From Pseudomonadota bacterium (GTDB lineage: Bacteria > Pseudomonadota > Alphaproteobacteria > SHVP01): a stretch of DNA of 43,653 nucleotides. Below the pieces are notes generated by a model. It worked only from the letters and a program-made list of their open reading frames with translations. It was not told the DNA's origin and made no database searches. The stretch lies in NCBI GenBank assembly GCA_027622715.1, contig JAQBYN010000027.1, positions 1-43,653 on the forward strand, read 5' to 3'. A program made the position numbers and the translations under genes. Shown one piece after another: positions 27,033 to 40,626 of this stretch (positions within the stretch are counted from its first letter, which is position 1; the number at the start of each line of letters is the position of its first letter).

Positions 27033-28241
27033 CTAGGTATCCATCATATCTTCAGCGCCACCGGCGCTAGGATCGCTAGCAACCGCCGCGCCGCCATCCG
27101 ACAGCTTGGCGTCCGAGAGATCGATCGCCGTTGGGCTGAGCCCGTCCATCTTCGCGCCGCGCAGGTCGGCCTTAACGAACGATGCACGGCGTTTCTTGCT
27201 TGTCTCCTTGCCGTCCGCGTCGCGCAAAGTCCAGGGCTCGGCTTTGGCACCGGCCAAGACCGCTTCGCGGAGATCTGCCTTACCAAAATCGGAGGCGGAA
27301 ATCTCCGCGCCCATAAAATCGACCGCCTTGAGATTGGCACCACGAAAATCGGTGAGGACGACGACCGCAACGCATAACCGCCCGCCCTCAAGGTCGCAGT
27401 CACGCATATCCGCGCCGGAGAGATAGGCGTTGGAGAGATCCGCGCCGCGCATCTTGACGCCCTTCAGAACCGCCCGGCTTCCGGAAGCACCGGACGTTTC
27501 GACCCACAACGCGTGGTCCCTTAGGGCTTTTTGCAGGTTGACCGGGAGTTTCGAAATGCCAGGCGTGGACTGCGACCCCTGGAGATTGGCCCGGCTGAGG
27601 TCGGTCTCGGCCATGATCGCGCCGCGGAAATCCGCCCGCACCATCGACGCCGCGTGAAATGACGCACCTGACAAGTCCGCGCCGGTCATGTTGGTTCGTT
27701 GGACGCTCGCCTTGGTAAGATCTGCGCCAGCGAGGTCGGCACCGCGTAGTGTCGCGCCATCGAACACGGTGCGGTGGGCCTTGACCCGGCGCATTGAGAC
27801 AAATTGCATTTTAGCGTCTTCGAAATGGGCATTGCTGAGGGTTGCGCTGTCCAATACCGCGCCCTCGAAATTGGCGCGCGGATCATCGCGCGGCTGGGTG
27901 TCGAGCGAACCCGGCCTCAGGTCGGCACCCTCGAGATTGGCGAAGTTCAGTCGGGCCCGTCGCATACAGGCACCGCGCAGGTTCGCATTCTGAAAATGAC
28001 CCTCGCTCAGATCGGCGCCTTCAAAATTTGCGCTGAATAGATCGGCCGACCTGAAATCTGCACCGGCGAGCTTGCATCCGGAGAAATTTGCGCCGGCCAA
28101 TGACGCGCCGCGCAGAACCAACCCAGGTAAACGCAGGCCCGACAAGTTCTCACCGCGTAGATCGGCGCGCTTCCCGCCGGGCTTCCCGTCGGCGAACAGT
28201 GCGTGAGACTTGATAATCGTAACAAACTCGAGCGGCGTCAT
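27033..28241 (-). CDS. Pentapeptide repeat protein, paralogue of the neighbour at 28322
   Basis: The 402-residue protein is almost entirely A(D/N)LXX pentapeptides, which fold as a right-handed quadrilateral beta-helix. It opens with MTPLEFVTIIKSHALFADGKPGGKRADLRGENLSG. Two interruptions occur: GSLDTQPRDDPRANFEG near residue 115, and LPVNLQKALRDHALWVETSG near residue 235, which restarts a second repeat block. A third (DADGKETSKKRR) lies near residue 350. Pentapeptide proteins include topoisomerase-binding DNA mimics and many of unknown role; nothing here points to a target. It has the same layout as the gene upstream, 80 bp away on the same strand. Confidence 0.93.
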   Translation of the reverse strand: MTPLEFVTIIKSHALFADGKPGGKRADLRGENLSGLRLPGLVLRGASLAGANFSGCKLAGADFRSADLFSANFEGADLSEGHFQNANLRGACMRRARLNFANLEGADLRPGSLDTQPRDDPRANFEGAVLDSATLSNAHFEDAKMQFVSMRRVKAHRTVFDGATLRGADLAGADLTKASVQRTNMTGADLSGASFHAASMVRADFRGAIMAETDLSRANLQGSQSTPGISKLPVNLQKALRDHALWVETSGASGSRAVLKGVKMRGADLSNAYLSGADMRDCDLEGGRLCVAVVVLTDFRGANLKAVDFMGAEISASDFGKADLREAVLAGAKAEPWTLRDADGKETSKKRRASFVKADLRGAKMDGLSPTAIDLSDAKLSDGGAAVASDPSAGGAEDMMDT

Positions 28242-28321
28242 TGGCGATCCCCCAATTCCAGAGCGCCCTACTACATATTCCGCAGCGCCGAGCTACACGG
28301 CACGTCACGGCTTACGATAGA

Positions 28322-29476
28322 TCACAAATCAGTATCGGTCTTAGCTCCCGTCAGATCGGCTTCCGACAAATCGACGGCTCCGGTATGCGCTTCGCGCAAG
28401 TCAGCGTCGGCGAGCATCGTGCGCCGTTTCTGTCCCGTCTCGCGCCCGTCTGCACCGCGCAGTTCGATTGGCAATGCAATGACGCCGTCGAGCCGTGCCG
28501 CCCGCAGGCTTCCCCCGGAAAGATCGGCACCCGAAATATCGGCCCGGGTCATATCCGCTGCCGTCAGATTCACGTCCCGCATGTCCGCCAAAACCAACGT
28601 GCCATTGTTGAGCTTGGCCCCGGCAAGATTTGCGCCGCGCAGGTTTGCGCCTGACAAGTAACATTCAGACAGATTGGCTTCGGCCAGTAGTTGACCGGAA
28701 AGATCGGCCCGAGCGCCCTTCGCGCCATTCGACTCGACCCACAGCGCGTGGTCGCGCAACAATGCCTGCAATTCTGGCGGCAACTTAGCCATGCCGATGG
28801 CGATTCGCGCGCCTTGCATGTGAGCGCCCTCAAGATTCACGTCGACCAAGATGGCGCCGCGAACATCCGTGTTCCGTAACAGCGCGTCTTTAAATCGAGC
28901 ATTCGTTAAGTTGGTTCCGGTGAGATTCGCTTCTTGCAGTCGCGCCGATTCGAAATTGACGCCGGTGAGATCCGCGCCGCGCAGGTTGGTGCGCATCATC
29001 GTTGAAAACGACGCGTCGACCTTCTTAAGCGACGCGTATTGCATGTTGGCTTCGGAGAGCTTGGCTCGTTTCAGATTAGTAAAATCTAATGTTGCGCCCT
29101 CGAAGTTGGCGTTCGGACTACTTTTAGGGCGCGTGTCGAGGGTACCTGGGCGCAGATCTGCGCCCGTCAAATTGGCGAAACTCATGCGCGCGTTACCGAA
29201 ACGCACACCCCGTAGATCGGCGCGTTCGAAATTCGATTCGGTAACGTCCGCGCCTTCAAAATTGGCGCCAAATAAATCCGACTGTGAGAAGTCCGCGCCG
29301 GCCAGTTCAGCACCCGAGAAATCCACGCCCACAAGCGATGCACCCCGAAGATTAAGATAGGTGTGTTTGAGCTTCGACAGGTCCCGCTCTCGAAGATCGG
29401 CTCGGCTGCCGCCCGCCATTCCGTTGACGAATAACTCGTGCTTTTTGATGGTCTCGATGAATTCCTGTGGAGTCAT
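28322..29476 (-). CDS. Pentapeptide repeat protein, paralogue of the neighbour at 27033
   Basis: The 384-residue protein has the same domain plan as the downstream paralogue: MTPQEFIETIKKHELFVNG, pentapeptide block, interruption GTLDTRPKSSPNANFEG, second block restarting after LPPELQALLRDHALWVESNG, then GADGRETGQKRR and a final short block. The start at 29476 matches that of the paralogue; an in-frame start at 29518 adds 14 unconserved residues. The pair is a tandem duplication with considerable divergence. Upstream lies a region with a CRP-like site and an inverted repeat. Molecular target unknown. Confidence 0.93.
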   Translation of the reverse strand: MTPQEFIETIKKHELFVNGMAGGSRADLRERDLSKLKHTYLNLRGASLVGVDFSGAELAGADFSQSDLFGANFEGADVTESNFERADLRGVRFGNARMSFANLTGADLRPGTLDTRPKSSPNANFEGATLDFTNLKRAKLSEANMQYASLKKVDASFSTMMRTNLRGADLTGVNFESARLQEANLTGTNLTNARFKDALLRNTDVRGAILVDVNLEGAHMQGARIAIGMAKLPPELQALLRDHALWVESNGAKGARADLSGQLLAEANLSECYLSGANLRGANLAGAKLNNGTLVLADMRDVNLTAADMTRADISGADLSGGSLRAARLDGVIALPIELRGADGRETGQKRRTMLADADLREAHTGAVDLSEADLTGAKTDTDL

Positions 29477-29600
29477 AAGCCCTCTCGAATTCCTAGTTTT
29501 TGCAAGCGCATCACGCAACTAACGCTTGTACTAGACGCCCCTTCAAAATCGCACCTCGCGAACGGCATGAGCATTAAGGCACGCCAAACTAGGCTTACCC

Positions 29601-30479: not shown

Positions 30480-31646
30480 CTAGTCAGGCGGCGGATGGTC
30501 TTGAATATCCCGCAAAACATGATCGACCGCGCGCATTGAGAAACGGTGATCGGCATGGCTGGTGTCCACGAAGACATCCCAGCCGGCACCGAGCGACTCG
30601 GCGGCGTCATGAACCGGGCCCGCATAGGTTTGCCAGTCGACACCGCCGTAACAGCATCCGTCGAATTGATTGAGCACTTGGACCTGGCGCCGGCCCGGCC
30701 CGGCAGCAGCCATCACGTACATATCCAGATAGTTCGCGGCCGCGAGCATCGGCGGGTAGGTCTCCTGCCACGTCGACCAGTTGCGGTATTTGCGCAGGTA
30801 GAGGGGATAGCTGCCCGCCACCGGATACGACAGGCGCACACGCGTGTCCATCGCGGCCAGAACGGTCATCGCCCAACCGCCGCCGGAAAACCCGACTGCG
30901 ATGACATCGTCGTAGCTGCCCGATTCGAGAACCGCGTTAAGGCCCGCTGCAATCGGATCGAAATAGATGCGTAACGGATGGGGGTCGTCGAGGAATTTGA
31001 GATGCTGATGATCAATGAAGGTGATGCGCCCAGCGCCGGGCACCTCAAAATCGGGCTGCCGGTCGTTGATCCACATCGAAAAGGCGAGCACGCCGTAGCC
31101 CTCGGCGAGGAATCGTTGGATCACCTTGGCATTGCGGTGGAAGCGCCCGGTGTTGCCTTCATGGAAGACCACGAGTTTACCGTTAGGCGCGCGCGGGACG
31201 AGATGAAACGCGCGGGAAATAAATCCGGGCGGCGTTTCCCGCACCAATTGATCAATCCGATCGACTTCGGGCATGGCCGAAAACAGGTCATCGCGAAAGT
31301 CGTGATCGACACGTGTCGGGCGTAGGTCGATTGGAAGGCCCGACTCCCCCCATATCGCAAGCAATAGTTCGGCACGCGCCGTCCAGACATCGGTCACGCT
31401 ATGCACGCGAATCAGCGCGGCGGCATCGACCGTCTTAAACTCGGGATATGTCTCAAGAAAGCGGAACCGCTGACCCGGCCTCAAGTATTCGGTTCGCACA
31501 ACACGCACCCAGTCGCGCGCGTCCGCATAGGCCTGGGCGTCCACTGCGCGCAACACGAGGCTGCCGAGCCACACCGCCACTAGGACCGCAGCCAGCGTGA
31601 TAAAGGTGTACCAGATCGTCTTGATGAGCCGCCAAAGCCTGCGCAT
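30480..31646 (-). CDS. Membrane-anchored alpha/beta hydrolase-like protein
   Basis: The 388-residue protein has one N-terminal membrane span (IWYTFITLAAVLVAVWLGSLVL) and an extracytoplasmic or cytoplasmic hydrolase-like domain. The core shows KLVVFHEGNTG at the first strand, a nucleophile elbow VGFSGGGWA with the Ser in G-x-S-x-G, and a late DTSHADHRF that could supply the His. The acid residue is not clear. I cannot name a substrate. Its stop lies five bases from that of the convergent DUF2306 gene. Confidence 0.8.
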   Translation of the reverse strand: MRRLWRLIKTIWYTFITLAAVLVAVWLGSLVLRAVDAQAYADARDWVRVVRTEYLRPGQRFRFLETYPEFKTVDAAALIRVHSVTDVWTARAELLLAIWGESGLPIDLRPTRVDHDFRDDLFSAMPEVDRIDQLVRETPPGFISRAFHLVPRAPNGKLVVFHEGNTGRFHRNAKVIQRFLAEGYGVLAFSMWINDRQPDFEVPGAGRITFIDHQHLKFLDDPHPLRIYFDPIAAGLNAVLESGSYDDVIAVGFSGGGWAMTVLAAMDTRVRLSYPVAGSYPLYLRKYRNWSTWQETYPPMLAAANYLDMYVMAAAGPGRRQVQVLNQFDGCCYGGVDWQTYAGPVHDAAESLGAGWDVFVDTSHADHRFSMRAVDHVLRDIQDHPPPD

Positions 31647-31693: not shown

Positions 31694-32413
31694 TCACCAA
31701 GGCACTTCGGTTCCGTCGTAAAGATAGAATTTTCCGGCGTCAGCGAGCGTCCACGATTGAATCATCGGCGTGCAGTTTGCGACCGATTCGTCGACCGAGA
31801 ACTTCGCCTGATCGCTGCCCAGCGCGGTGCGGACCCAGCCAGGCCCGAGCATCACCACGGCGACGCCGCGCGGCTTTAGCTCCCACGCCATGCAGCGCGA
31901 CACCATATTGAGCGCGGTTTTCGAGGAACGGTAGAGGTAGAGCTCACCCTTGGCAGAACCGGGTGGCGTCGCGTCGATCTTGTTGGCGATCGACGATGTT
32001 CCTGAGGACACGTTGACGACCAGCTTGCGGTCGGAGCGTGCGACGTGCTCGATAAACGCCTCCGACATTTTCATGACGCCAAAAACATTGGTGCGCATGA
32101 CGTTTGCCCAAGACTCGTAGTCGGTGGTGCCGAAATTCTGGGGCTGCGGGCCCTGAATGCCTGCGTTGTTGAACAAGATATCAACAGACTCGCCCGACAG
32201 TGACGTCGCGTAGCGATCGATCGAATCATGATCCGTAACGTCGAGGCGGTCGATCCTAACGCGACCGCCGGACGCGTCGGCCAGCGCGCTGAACGCACCG
32301 GCCGATGCAGGATCGCGACACGACGCCAGAACCCGCCAGCCGTCTTGCGCAAAACGCGCGGCAAATCCCAGTCCCAGTCCCTTGTTCGCGCCGGTAATTA
32401 GAATTGTTGGCAT
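31694..32413 (-). CDS. SDR family oxidoreductase, copy 1
   Basis: This is a classical short-chain dehydrogenase/reductase of 239 residues. It has the cofactor motif TGANKGLGLG, the DVTD adenine-ring motif, NNAG, the catalytic Ser in VNVSSGTSS and the YRSSK catalytic Tyr-Lys. The first segment matches NAD(P)-binding enzymes of the C-factor/sniffer type. A close paralogue lies at 35496. It is divergent from the carotenoid-oxygenase-like gene across a spacer with a CRP-like operator, so the two may be controlled together. AGGGG precedes the ATG. Confidence 0.93.
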   Translation of the reverse strand: MPTILITGANKGLGLGFAARFAQDGWRVLASCRDPASAGAFSALADASGGRVRIDRLDVTDHDSIDRYATSLSGESVDILFNNAGIQGPQPQNFGTTDYESWANVMRTNVFGVMKMSEAFIEHVARSDRKLVVNVSSGTSSIANKIDATPPGSAKGELYLYRSSKTALNMVSRCMAWELKPRGVAVVMLGPGWVRTALGSDQAKFSVDESVANCTPMIQSWTLADAGKFYLYDGTEVPW

Positions 32414-32588: not shown

Positions 32589-34034
32589 GTGACGGACGCG
32601 CTTAGCGACGACGCCTCTTCTCACGACGCGCATCATTGGGTCACGCTCCTCGGTACCAGTCTGCGGCAGGAACAGGACTACGTCGCCGAGGTCCGAGGGC
32701 GATGGCCCACCGATTTGCGGGGCACGCTGTTTCGCAACGGTCCGGGGTTGTTTGAGCGCGACGGCGTGCGTAAGCGCATGGTCACGGACGGCGATGGCAT
32801 GATCCGGGCCTACGACATCGGCGATGGGACCGTCCGGTTCCGATCAAAATTTATCCGCACGACAAAGTTTCGCGAAGAAGAGGCCGCTAGCCGCTACAAA
32901 TACGCGACTTGGAGCACGCGTGCGCCAGGCGGTATCTTACGTAACCTCGGAGGAGGCCGTCGGCGTTCCCAGGCTGAGGCCACCGTTATCGTGCGTCACG
33001 GCAAACTGCTGGCGTTTGACGAGATTGGATTGCCGTGGTCGCTCGACCCTCACACCCTAAACACAACGAGCCGGTACCAAATTGGGGCGCCGTCGGATCG
33101 GCCGGCGTTCAAGAGTCGCACGAAGATTGACCCGATTACCGGCGACTGGTTGGCGCTAGGAAACGACTATGTCGAACCGTTGAAGTTGCGCGTTCTCGTT
33201 GAGAACGCACAGGGCCTCTCGAAAACAGAGTTAAGTTTGCGCCTGCCTCGGAAGAGCTACTTTCGCGATTTTTTCACGACCGCGCGCTTCGTCGTCGTCG
33301 GCCTAAACGCGGTCGAGATAAATACCTTGTCGGCGACACTCGGGCTCGCCCCTATTCTCAGCGCCATTCGATGGAAGCCGTCGATCGGCAACATCGCGGT
33401 TGTCATCCCCAAAAACGGTGACGATCCGTTCGCCGTCGACGCGCCGCCATCGTGGTGTTTTCACACGATCAACGCCTACGAATCCGGGAACGAGATCATC
33501 GCCGATTTTGTCGGTCATGATTCACCCGAGTGGCTCCTGGGAAAAAATCCGGCCCTCGGTGCCGTCATGCGCGGTGTGGTGAAACCGGTCGAAGACCAGG
33601 GAAAGGTGCGCCGCTGGCGCATTGACCTGAACACACGCCGTCTGCGTGAGGAGATCGTCGATGAAACCGGGCACGAGTATCCGACTGTCGACCCGTTGCG
33701 GGTTGGTCTTCCGTACCGTCATGCGTACCTAGCGACAGCCCGCCCGAAACAATGGTGGACCAGCGGAACCGTAAGACTGGACATGGAAAGCGGCGCGCGT
33801 GACGCCTATGAGGCGCGATCGACACAGACGCTGGGCGAGCCGGTCTTCGTTCCGCGCGAGGGCGGCGGCGCTGACGAGGGATGGCTTCTCGTCGAATCGC
33901 TGGACGGCGAGGCCGGCGTCACCTCTCTCCTCCTCTTTAATGCCGGGAGCGTCGCAAGTGGCCCGATCGCAGAGGCGGTCTTGCGCCATCACTTGCCTTT
34001 CAGCGAGCACGGATCCTGGATGTCCGGCACCTGA
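32589..34034 (+). CDS. Carotenoid oxygenase family protein with two iron-ligand His replaced by Arg
   Basis: The 481-residue protein matches the retinal pigment epithelial membrane protein/carotenoid cleavage oxygenase family throughout: GTLFRNGPGLFERDG, HRMVTDGDGM-type line (KRMVTDGDGMIRAYD), SWCFHTINAYESG and the C-terminal FSEHGSW. Of the four His that hold the iron, the last two appear kept (His292 and His474). The first two positions appear as Arg: Arg177 in FKSRTKIDPITGD, where AHPK.DP is usual, and Arg226 in YFRDFFTTARF, where HDF..T is usual. Each needs only a CAC/CAT to CGC/CGT change. Enzymatic activity is doubtful. GTG at 32589 is chosen because GAG sits eight bases upstream; a TTG at 32583 is the alternative. 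Confidence 0.9.
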   Translation: MTDALSDDASSHDAHHWVTLLGTSLRQEQDYVAEVRGRWPTDLRGTLFRNGPGLFERDGVRKRMVTDGDGMIRAYDIGDGTVRFRSKFIRTTKFREEEAASRYKYATWSTRAPGGILRNLGGGRRRSQAEATVIVRHGKLLAFDEIGLPWSLDPHTLNTTSRYQIGAPSDRPAFKSRTKIDPITGDWLALGNDYVEPLKLRVLVENAQGLSKTELSLRLPRKSYFRDFFTTARFVVVGLNAVEINTLSATLGLAPILSAIRWKPSIGNIAVVIPKNGDDPFAVDAPPSWCFHTINAYESGNEIIADFVGHDSPEWLLGKNPALGAVMRGVVKPVEDQGKVRRWRIDLNTRRLREEIVDETGHEYPTVDPLRVGLPYRHAYLATARPKQWWTSGTVRLDMESGARDAYEARSTQTLGEPVFVPREGGGADEGWLLVESLDGEAGVTSLLLFNAGSVASGPIAEAVLRHHLPFSEHGSWMSGT

Positions 34035-34170
34035 ACGACGACGGCGGCGCGGTTACCCGCTAATGGCCTCGTCATGATCGGGTAAGGTTGGTGGATCAGA
34101 CTAGCCAGTTCTGTGCGCACAAGCGCCGCGCCCTGGCTAGGATCGTCGACGGTAGATGGAGTTAGCGCTA

Positions 34171-34557
34171 ATGACGAGCGAACTCTGGGTCTTGACGGGC
34201 GTGATCGTCCTCGCGCTGGCGCAGGTGTCACTGGCGACTTTTTGGGCGCAAGCGCAACTTGGCAACTGGCGCGTTGGCCCGCGCGACGAGCCACGTCCGC
34301 TGACCGGAGTCGCCGGTCGGTTGGACCGCGCCTACAAGAACCTGCTGGAAACATTGCCGTGGTTTGCGGCGCTGGTACTGCTGTTGCATCTAACCGAGCG
34401 TGGGGGGCAATTATCTCTCATTGGCGCGCATCTTTATTTCTGGGGTCGGGTCGGCTACGCGCCAGCATACATCACCGGCATACCCTGGTTTCGCACCGTG
34501 TTTTGGTGGGTGTCGATGGTCGGGATCGTGCTGCTTCTCGTCGAGGTGGTCGTCTAG
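34171..34557 (+). CDS. MAPEG family membrane protein
   Basis: The 128-residue protein has about four membrane spans: LWVLTGVIVLALAQVSLATFW, then WFAALVLLLHLTE, a third around GAHLYFWGRVGYAPAYITG, and VFWWVSMVGIVLLLVEVVV. The loop RLDRAYKNLLETLPWF carries the R.....N..E..P.F motif of the MAPEG (membrane-associated eicosanoid/glutathione metabolism) family. The bacterial substrate is unknown. The ATG at 34171 with GGAG nine bases upstream is preferred over the ATG at 34156. Confidence 0.85.
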   Translation: MTSELWVLTGVIVLALAQVSLATFWAQAQLGNWRVGPRDEPRPLTGVAGRLDRAYKNLLETLPWFAALVLLLHLTERGGQLSLIGAHLYFWGRVGYAPAYITGIPWFRTVFWWVSMVGIVLLLVEVVV

Positions 34558-35495: not shown

Positions 35496-36218
35496 TCACC
35501 ATGGCACCACCGTGCCGTCGTGGCCGCGAAATTGGCCGGTGTCGGCCAGAGTGAAACTGTTGATGGTGGGCACGCAGGCGGCGATGGCTTCGTCCACCGA
35601 CAGGCGCGCGTTGGGGCCGCCCAAGTCCGTGCGGACCCAGCCCGGGCCCAGCAGCACGACGGCGATACCGCGCGGTTGCAGCTCCCACGCCATGCAGCGC
35701 GAGACCATGTTGAGCGCGGTTTTGGTCGAGCGGTACTGGTGGAGTTCGCCCTTGGTGTTGTCGGGGTCGGCGGTGGTTTTGTTGGCGATAGACGACGTGC
35801 GCGACGAGACGTTGACGATGAGTTTTTTGGCGCCGCGTTCGACGTGCGGCGCGAACGCCTCGCACATCTTCATCACGCCCATGACGTTGGTGCGGAACGC
35901 CAGATCCCACGCTGCGTAATCGGTGTGGCGGAATTTTTGCGGATGCCCGCCCTGCACGGCGGCGTTGTTGAGCAGGAGGTCGACGGGCTTGGCTTTGAGG
36001 GTATCGGCCAGCGCGTCGATGGTGGCGTGGTCGGTGACGTCGAGCGCATGGACCTGCACGTCGTGGGTTTGCGCGAGCGCGTTGAGGTCGGTTGCCGCGT
36101 CGGGGCGGCGGCAGGCGGCCAGCACGCGCCAACCGTCGGCGGCGTAGCGTTTGGCGAAGCCAAGCCCGAGGCCTTTGTTGGCACCGGTGATGAGGATGGT
36201 GGGCATGGATGTTTTCAT
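35496..36218 (-). CDS. SDR family oxidoreductase, copy 2
   Basis: The 240-residue SDR is a close paralogue of the gene at 31694, with the same motifs: TGANKGLGLG, DVTD, NNAA, VNVSSRTSS, and YRSTK. Long stretches are shared, for example TALNMVSRCMAWEL followed by PRGIAVVLLGPGWVRT. Its codons look richer in G and C at third positions than those of copy 1. ATG at 36218 is used because a weak purine stretch precedes it; ATG at 36206 matches the paralogue start exactly and is also possible. Confidence 0.93.
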   Translation of the reverse strand: MKTSMPTILITGANKGLGLGFAKRYAADGWRVLAACRRPDAATDLNALAQTHDVQVHALDVTDHATIDALADTLKAKPVDLLLNNAAVQGGHPQKFRHTDYAAWDLAFRTNVMGVMKMCEAFAPHVERGAKKLIVNVSSRTSSIANKTTADPDNTKGELHQYRSTKTALNMVSRCMAWELQPRGIAVVLLGPGWVRTDLGGPNARLSVDEAIAACVPTINSFTLADTGQFRGHDGTVVPW

Positions 36219-36247
36219 GTCACTTGCCGCGTTTGAGGTCTAGGGCG

Positions 36248-36294
36248 GGGTCCTTCGGGACGCGGCCCGAGAGGGCCGCTCTTCAGGATGAGCT
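36248..36294. repeat. CTCAGGATGA-type palindromic repeat
   Basis: A single unit reading GTCCTTCGGGACGCGGCC, then GAGAGGGCCGC, then a variant end TTCAGGATGAG. The GCGGCC...GGCCGC arms form a hairpin. Similar units recur at 36493 and 40545. Confidence 0.8.
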
Positions 36295-36306
36295 CGGTCA
36301 CCTTTT

Positions 36307-36648
36307 GCCGAAACAAAGCCAACTGCGGCGGGTTTCCTGCGGTTTGGGGTTTGCCGCCTGGACGTCGCACTTTTTTTGCCAAACGAACCCAAAGTTTTCC
36401 ATATCTTTCAATCACTTAGCTTTTTTGACGACGAACGAAGCCAAATTACCTTGTGAGAACAAAGGCTTGGGGCCTCTGCTGCGGGTTGCGACGGGGGTCC
36501 TTCGGGACGCGGCCTGAGAGGGCCGCTCCTCAGGATGAGCTAGAGCGCGGCCTGAGAGGGCCGCTCCTCAGGATGAGCTAGAGCGCGGCCCAAAAGGCCG
36601 ACCCTAAGGATGAGCTGACTCTCTTTTCGCCGAAACAAAGCCAACTGC
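36307..36648. repeat. 20-bp direct repeat flanking the tandem array
   Basis: The sequence GCCGAAACAAAGCCAACTGC occurs at 36307-36326 and again at 36629-36648, each just after a CTCAGGATGA-type repeat. It suggests a duplicated block. Confidence 0.85.
36493..36616. repeat. Tandem array of three CTCAGGATGA-type repeats, 38-bp period
   Basis: Units begin at 36509, 36547 and 36585. The first two share GCGGCCTGAGAGGGCCGCTC and the following TCAGGATGAGCTAGA; the third is degenerate (GCGGCCCAAAAGGCCGACCC). Each contains a GCGGCC/GGCCGC or shorter hairpin. Confidence 0.9.
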
Positions 36649-36819
36649 CGCAGGCTGCCTGGGGTTCGTTGCTGTCATTACATTCCTCGCTGCGGCCATT
36701 CAAAGGTTCGAAGACAGATGGGCATCGGTGTCACGGGCGTCGATGGCGGGACGGGGATTGTGATGGGTGGGGACAGCAGTTGTGATCGGGCCCTACCAAG
36801 CCCCTGGCCTCGCCGCCTG

Positions 36820-36986
36820 TCATCCTGAGCCGGACGGATCGCGCCGGCAGGCGCGGGCCGTTCGAGTCGAAGGGGCTGCCAGCGCGCCGCGAGGCGCGCT
36901 TACCTGTGATGAGGTTGGGTTGATGCGCGGTAGCGCGCGCGACGCACGCCCTTCGAGACGCGGCCTTCGACCGCTCCTCAGGATGA
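36820..36986. repeat. Composite inverted-repeat element 1
   Basis: Terminal TCATCCTGAG (36820) and CTCAGGATGA (end) enclose about 147 bp. The left half has GCGCCGGCAGGCGC and TCGAGTCGAAGGG, then GCGCGCCGCGAGGCGCGC; the right half has GCGCGCGAC, CCCTTCGAGACGC and a GACCGCTCCTCAGG end. The same plan recurs at 38449, 40197 and 40421. Confidence 0.85.
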
Positions 36987-37042
36987 CAGAATCTTTTGAG
37001 GAAGGGAGTTGGAGCGTTCGGGTTGGCAGCGGGGCTGGGGGA

Positions 37043-38448: not shown

Positions 38449-38610
38449 TCATCCTGAGCCGGGCGGCACGCGCCGGCAGGCGCGGGCTGTTCGAGTCGAA
38501 GGGCCTGCTTGCGCGCCGGGCGACGCGCTATCTTGAACTAACGCTTTGAAGAGACGCGCTGCGCGCGAGGGGCGCCCTTCGAGACGGGCCTTCGGCCCTC
38601 CTCAGGATGA
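38449..38610. repeat. Composite inverted-repeat element 2
   Basis: TCATCCTGAG at 38449 and CTCAGGATGA at 38601-38610 are the ends of a 162-bp element. The centre has GCGCGCCGGGCGACGCGC, then GAAGAGACGCGCTGCGCGCG. The right part includes a GGGCCTTCGGCCC hairpin. Confidence 0.85.
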
Positions 38611-40196: not shown

Positions 40197-40373
40197 TCAT
40201 CCTGAGCCGAACGGATCGCGCCGTCAGGCGCGGGCCGGTCGTGTCGAAGGGGCTGCTTGCGCGCCGCGAGGCGCGCTTTCTTACAAAGTTTTGAAGAGGC
40301 GCGCTGCGCGCGAGAGACGCCCTTCGTCACGGGCCGTCTTCGCCTAGCGACGAAGCCGCCCCGGCTCAGGATG
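40197..40373. repeat. Composite inverted-repeat element 3
   Basis: TCATCCTGAG at 40197 and CTCAGGATG near 40365-40373 bound about 177 bp. The left half carries GCGCCGTCAGGCGC and GCGCGCCGCGAGGCGCGC; the right half GAAGAGGCGCGCTGCGCGCG and CGTCTTCGCCTAGCGACGAAG. Confidence 0.85.
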
Positions 40374-40420
40374 CGGATTTTAGGTGGATGTTTCGATTTG
40401 GCGGGAACGGAAAAGAACCG

Positions 40421-40586
40421 CATCCTGAGCCGAGCGGATCGCGCCGTTAGGCGTGGGCCGGTCGTGTCGAAGGGCCTGCTTGCGCGCCGCGAGGTGCGCT
40501 TTCTCGAATTATTGCTTTGAAGAGACGCGCTACGCGCGAGGGGCGTCCTTCGGGACGCGGCCCGAGAGGGCCGCTCCTCAGGATGA
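40421..40586. repeat. Composite inverted-repeat element 4
   Basis: CATCCTGAG at 40421 and CTCAGGATGA at 40577-40586 bound about 166 bp with the same inner plan as element 3; the right half has the GACGCGGCCCGAGAGGGCCG hairpin seen at 36248. Confidence 0.85.
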
Positions 40587-40626
40587 GCGGGTTGGTGCTG
40601 TGTGCGATTTTGGTAGGGCGACGCCC

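Follow-up and report, generated by a model that had tools for sequence, protein, structure and literature searches.

The DNA analysed here, called the window throughout, is a whole contig (C27; 43,653 nucleotides) of an alphaproteobacterial genome of 3.15 Mb in 86 contigs, and ten genomes were compared in its order. The window carries a gene for a protein of the RPE65/carotenoid-oxygenase fold whose four iron-ligand positions read Arg-Arg-His-His (Table 1). The frame is open with a confirmed stop codon and begins with GTG at position 32589; an alternative TTG start six bases upstream would make the protein two residues longer. Genes for two SDR oxidoreductases and a MAPEG-family membrane protein surround it.

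Table 1. Features of the locus in window coordinates; the congener is the second species of the genus that carries the gene.
Feature	Coordinates	Strand	Remarks
Two tandem paralogues, pentapeptide-repeat-like (by eye)	27033..29518		49%; both conserved in the congener
388-aa protein without Pfam/NCBIfam match	30480..31646		81% identical in the congener
SDR oxidoreductase (SDR1)	31694..32413	-	divergent from the Arg-Arg gene; PF00106; conserved in the congener (L024)
RPE65/carotenoid-oxygenase-fold protein, ligands Arg-Arg-His-His (Arg-Arg gene)	32589..34034	+	481 aa, GTG start
Glu130, column of ACO Asn135 (beside Thr136)	32976..32978	+	Glu in 0/158 other homologues (of the residues tallied); in the Arg-Arg pair only
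Glu145, kept second-shell Glu	33021..33023	+	ACO Glu150 (alignment)
Arg177 (CGC), iron-ligand position 1	33117..33119	+	ACO His183; His in 158/158 other intact homologues
Arg226 (CGC), iron-ligand position 2	33264..33266	+	ACO His238; His in 158/158 other intact homologues
His292 (CAC), kept iron-ligand position 3	33462..33464	+	ACO His304 (alignment)
Glu363, kept second-shell Glu	33675..33677	+	ACO Glu370 (alignment)
Glu417, kept second-shell Glu	33837..33839	+	ACO Glu426 (alignment)
Glu473, directly precedes ligand His474	34005..34007	+	no acidic residue among those tallied for 158 others (mostly Phe/Leu); in the Arg-Arg pair only
His474 (CAC), kept iron-ligand position 4	34008..34010	+	ACO His484 (alignment)
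MAPEG-family membrane protein, downstream	34156..34557	+	PF01124, E 5.6e-20; 90% identical in L024
SDR oxidoreductase (SDR2)	35496..36218	-	order conserved in the congener
Dispersed repeats, apparently non-coding	36241..36666, 36821..36991, 38450..38586, 40198..40588

The window protein matches PF03055 with 303 bits (cut-off 27, E 4.6e-90) over profile positions 3-468 of 469. Its scores against the NCBIfam equivalogs for lignostilbene dioxygenase and 8'-apo-carotenoid 13,14-dioxygenase were 135, 125 and 122 bits, far under the respective cut-offs of 800, 650 and 675, and the protein is therefore in no named NCBIfam enzyme subfamily. A second RPE65-family gene of the same genome (G000:C6:27212-28537; L001, L029) has the full set of four His and three Glu and lies between luciferase-type monooxygenase-like and methyltransferase-like genes (by eye).

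Ligand columns were assigned from a phmmer alignment to the Synechocystis apocarotenoid oxygenase (ACO), counted residue by residue. A preliminary description of this DNA had placed Arg at the first and second ligand positions and His at the third and fourth, and the alignment to the solved structure confirms all four placements. An alignment with family members gives the same reading of R, R, H and H. The four-His feature of the Fe(II) carotenoid and stilbene oxygenases is thus reduced to two of four ligands. Each Arg codon had also been described as one transition away from a His codon, and each indeed differs from CAC by a single A-to-G change. None of the protein's remaining His aligns with ligand column 1 or 2, which rules out an alignment error. 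The second shell appears to be retained, as judged from the aligned residues Glu145, Glu363 and Glu417. Ala131 occupies the column of ACO Thr136, which we take to correspond to Thr122 of PbLSD. It has been suggested that the PbLSD threonine obstructs the sixth coordination site of the iron (PMC6097328).

Ligand columns were read in 163 rows from class- and phylum-wide searches within Pseudomonadota. Four His are found in 158 intact rows and Arg-Arg-His-His in two; the remaining three rows are broken, L038 and L193 representing one stop-riddled gene and L189 a split gene. Among the 160 intact homologues, the search for the same Arg pair found it, besides the window protein, only in the orthologue of the congener G001 (L004, L024; 82-83% identity). 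That orthologue likewise uses CGC for both Arg and sits in a gene order that matches the window's. A sequencing or assembly error is ruled out by this orthologue, which comes from a separate assembly and has the same pair and the same codons. The gene is absent from the third genome of the genus, which is only 87% complete. No RHHH or HRHH intermediate was seen in the census; no genomes other than G016 and G036 themselves turned up in searches of their orders. A tblastn search of plasmids gave distant relatives only, with at most ~31% identity among the matches listed. The gene behind L038 and L193 (G262:C44:11855-13017), from another family of the class, contains three TAG and one TAA codons and is likely a pseudogene, in contrast to the intact Arg-Arg gene.

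Across the 158 relatives ten columns reach 95% conservation or more; the window protein keeps eight of them, and the two that it has lost are exactly ligands 1 and 2. With conservation in 85% or more of relatives as the threshold, 39 of 47 columns are kept. An AlphaFold2 model built from a 56-row alignment (pLDDT 94.1, pTM 0.93) shows the seven-bladed propeller fold of ACO, RPE65 and VP14. The open frame, the kept columns and the confident model agree with the preliminary description of an intact gene whose protein is otherwise well preserved. By Foldseek and VIA-align the best solved match is ACO (Z 50.8, rmsd 1.9 over 460 residues); behind it come an archaeal CCD, lignostilbene dioxygenases, RPE65 (Z 43) and VP14 (Z 42.6). 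The fold matches include palmitate-containing RPE65 crystals, which show that the fold has room for a fatty acid. As the strand neighbour of a ligand, Glu473 may have its side chain directed away from the site.

Between the window gene and its orthologue in the congener, dN/dS is 0.076-0.078 (NG86) or 0.037 (maximum likelihood); synonymous sites are saturated and the synonymous values rough, and the conclusion of constraint is independent of the second digit. In the same two species, eight neighbouring genes have values of 0.035-0.197 and the four-His RPE65 paralogue has a value of 0.098. Constraint on the Arg-Arg protein is thus similar to that on the intact four-His paralogue. A pseudogene is ruled out by dN/dS and the intact frames. 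Purifying selection demonstrates that the protein has a function of some kind.

A maximum-likelihood tree was built from 67 proteins. It groups the Arg-Arg pair in one clade (100/100), which lies within a clade of 13 rows (100/100); the other eleven rows are all HHHH. This nesting makes His the ancestral state and, since only two Arg-Arg sequences with one shared ancestor are found, points to a single event. We therefore have high confidence that the double change is best read as having happened once, on or near the stem of the genus. The Arg pair and codons common to both species, the low dN/dS and the kept gene order argue for one old, maintained change and against decay. An unusually fast lineage was considered and rejected: root-to-tip distances are ~0.94-1.0 for the pair and ~0.5-1.0 for other members of the orthologue clade (by eye).

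The order SDR1, Arg-Arg gene, MAPEG gene, SDR2 is kept in the congener. The preliminary description had suggested that the protein might regulate a partner SDR, and this part found no support. Close homologues of SDR1 occur in family members without the Arg-Arg gene, with no copy in the flanking stretches read. In addition, the five four-His orthologues examined are divergent to a TetR-type regulator gene (HTH motif, by eye) and not to an SDR gene. The SDR as a special partner is thus unsupported; a stable neighbour within the genus is as much as the data show.

Several further features of the neighbourhood were recorded. The SDR family to which the neighbours belong is enlarged: the window genome and the congener each have seven close homologues, some in tandem arrays. 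A relative of the two pentapeptide-repeat-like proteins also lies near the four-His orthologue in L023. The 388-aa protein is constrained, with a dN/dS of ~0.06 between the two species. The dispersed repeats share a GGACGCGGCC-type core and comprise four copies of ~137 nt (62-85% identity to the reference copy) and five of ~53 nt; they yield long spurious ORFs.

A crtI-family desaturase had no match in the genome. Three PF00494 (SQS_PSY) genes are present, one beside secD/secF-like genes and two adjacent on C40, the latter presumably in the hopanoid-type order. With no crtI-family match and none of the three PF00494 genes identified as crtB, a carotenoid pathway of the organism's own was rejected. 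An endogenous carotenoid substrate is unlikely and, given the missing crtI-type desaturase, any carotenoid-like ligand would probably have an external source.

By descent and fold the protein is a member of PF03055; because the four-His feature fails, it is not to be filed among the four-His iron oxygenases. The Arg-Arg protein is very probably without canonical Fe chemistry, and the published RPE65 His-to-Arg mutants (PMC4081934) fit this loss. The two lost ligands, the second species, the strong purifying selection and the intact fold and second shell together give good support to the earlier proposal of a non-catalytic but maintained role. We consider it moderately probable that the iron centre was given up once in the lineage of the genus and that the protein has been kept since as an iron-free pseudo-oxygenase binding a hydrophobic ligand. 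Once canonical Fe chemistry is set aside, a ligand-binding role becomes fairly probable.

Two guanidinium groups at the metal site would preclude Fe(II) binding in the four-His manner and, with it, dioxygenase activity. Having replaced two neutral His and a divalent ion, the two Arg would leave the net charge of the site about unchanged, and Arg226 could pair with Glu145, with which it is presumably in contact, so that the propeller would be stable without metal. The hydrophobic tunnel would still bind a lipid-like molecule, perhaps carboxylated; the Arg pair would be able to hold a carboxylate at the former iron position, and the protein would act as a binding, carrier or sensor protein. We have moderate confidence that Arg stabilises the site instead of His and metal, and that the tunnel has a ligand of hydrophobic and perhaps carboxylated nature. 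The apocarotenoid or lipid binding proposed at the outset is plausible as a putative role. A wider formulation has about even chances in our estimate: the two Arg would have replaced two His and in effect the iron, yielding either a metal-free binding or sensor protein or a metal-free enzyme; its target would be hydrophobic and acidic, and its charged centre would have been rebuilt (R177, R226, E130, E473).

The main rival explanation is a neofunctionalised, metal-independent enzyme in which the Arg pair, His292, His474 and the Glu network form a new active site, for example that of an isomerase, lyase or hydrolase that works by acid-base chemistry or by stabilising an anion and takes a hydrophobic substrate with a carboxyl group. 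It draws on the concerted and conserved polar changes unique to the pair (the same four residues), which are under full constraint, and on the enzyme families represented by the downstream MAPEG protein and the neighbouring SDRs. However, no earlier case of metal-free catalysis by a member of the carotenoid-oxygenase family was found in the literature searched and the sequence indicates no particular reaction, and we regard this explanation as unlikely. A two-His metal site is less likely still. Since 2-His-1-carboxylate iron sites occur in other enzyme families, a metal-dependent oxygenase could be imagined with iron or another metal on two His and acidic residues such as Glu130 or Glu473; His292 and His474 are kept, and only the pair has the two additional Glu. 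This arrangement is nevertheless improbable: the cation would be repelled by two Arg at the vacated ligand positions, Glu473, which adjoins His474, may be out of reach of the same centre, and a single His-to-Arg change, made one at a time and in another enzyme, removed all detectable RPE65 activity (PMC4081934).

Recent inactivation, with the gene now drifting towards loss, would be in keeping with the third genome of the genus (87% complete), which is without the gene, and with the broken relatives in other genomes. Those relatives show stops and frame splits, unlike the Arg-Arg gene, which has no stops or frameshifts, shares its Arg pair and codons with a second species at 82% protein identity, has a dN/dS of ~0.08 and keeps its gene order. 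Gene loss is thus contradicted and very improbable. Least credible of all is that the ligands lie elsewhere through misalignment or that the Arg codons were miscalled. We found no point in support of such an error, and it is contradicted by the unambiguous match of SRTKIDP and FRDFF to AHTKIDP and HDFF in the orthologues, by the agreement of the congener's separate assembly and by the fact that no other His fits.

Across this large family the four-His iron site is almost invariable, being present in 158 of 158 other intact homologues. With the fold and second shell kept and two ligands changed to Arg, the window protein offers a way to ask what such a fold is for once iron is gone, whether it binds, carries or senses hydrophobic acids or performs other catalysis. 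It also follows that a protein labelled 'carotenoid oxygenase family protein' need not be an active oxygenase. In the open-licence literature searched we found neither a description of a maintained Arg-for-His pair nor a pseudoenzyme report for the carotenoid-oxygenase family.

Among characterized proteins, Synechocystis ACO (PDB 2biw, 4ou9, 5kk0) is also the best solved relative by sequence (E ~1e-52). In the fold comparison it has 28-29% identity to the window protein, with which it has in common ligands 3 and 4 as well as the second-shell Glu, all three of them. It differs in that His183 and His238 are replaced by Arg, Thr136 by Ala131, Asn135 by Glu130 and Trp149 by Asp144. The closest clade consists of alphaproteobacterial orthologues (L005-L008, L022, L023, L031-L036) that are 37-45% identical over the whole length and among which the tree places the Arg-Arg pair; unlike the window protein all of them are HHHH, and the five checked adjoin the TetR-type regulator and not an SDR.

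Incomplete His sets in this family are not without precedent in the literature, according to a review (PMC5133782). The review calls Fe2+ indispensable for cleavage, describes the four His and three Glu, and mentions three additional presumptive CCDs of Phycomyces blakesleeanus, only one of which has the expected His. The Phycomyces proteins lacking it are, like the window protein, natural members without the full His set, and differ in being fungal rather than bacterial. The RPE65 single mutants H180R, H241R, H313R and H527R have no detectable isomerase activity (PMC4081934), and H180R and H241R carry the equal residue change at ligand positions 1 and 2. Those mutants are engineered single changes in an animal isomerase, whereas the window protein is natural, doubly changed and maintained; the Arg-Arg protein is thus a natural counterpart to the inactive His-to-Arg RPE65 mutants.
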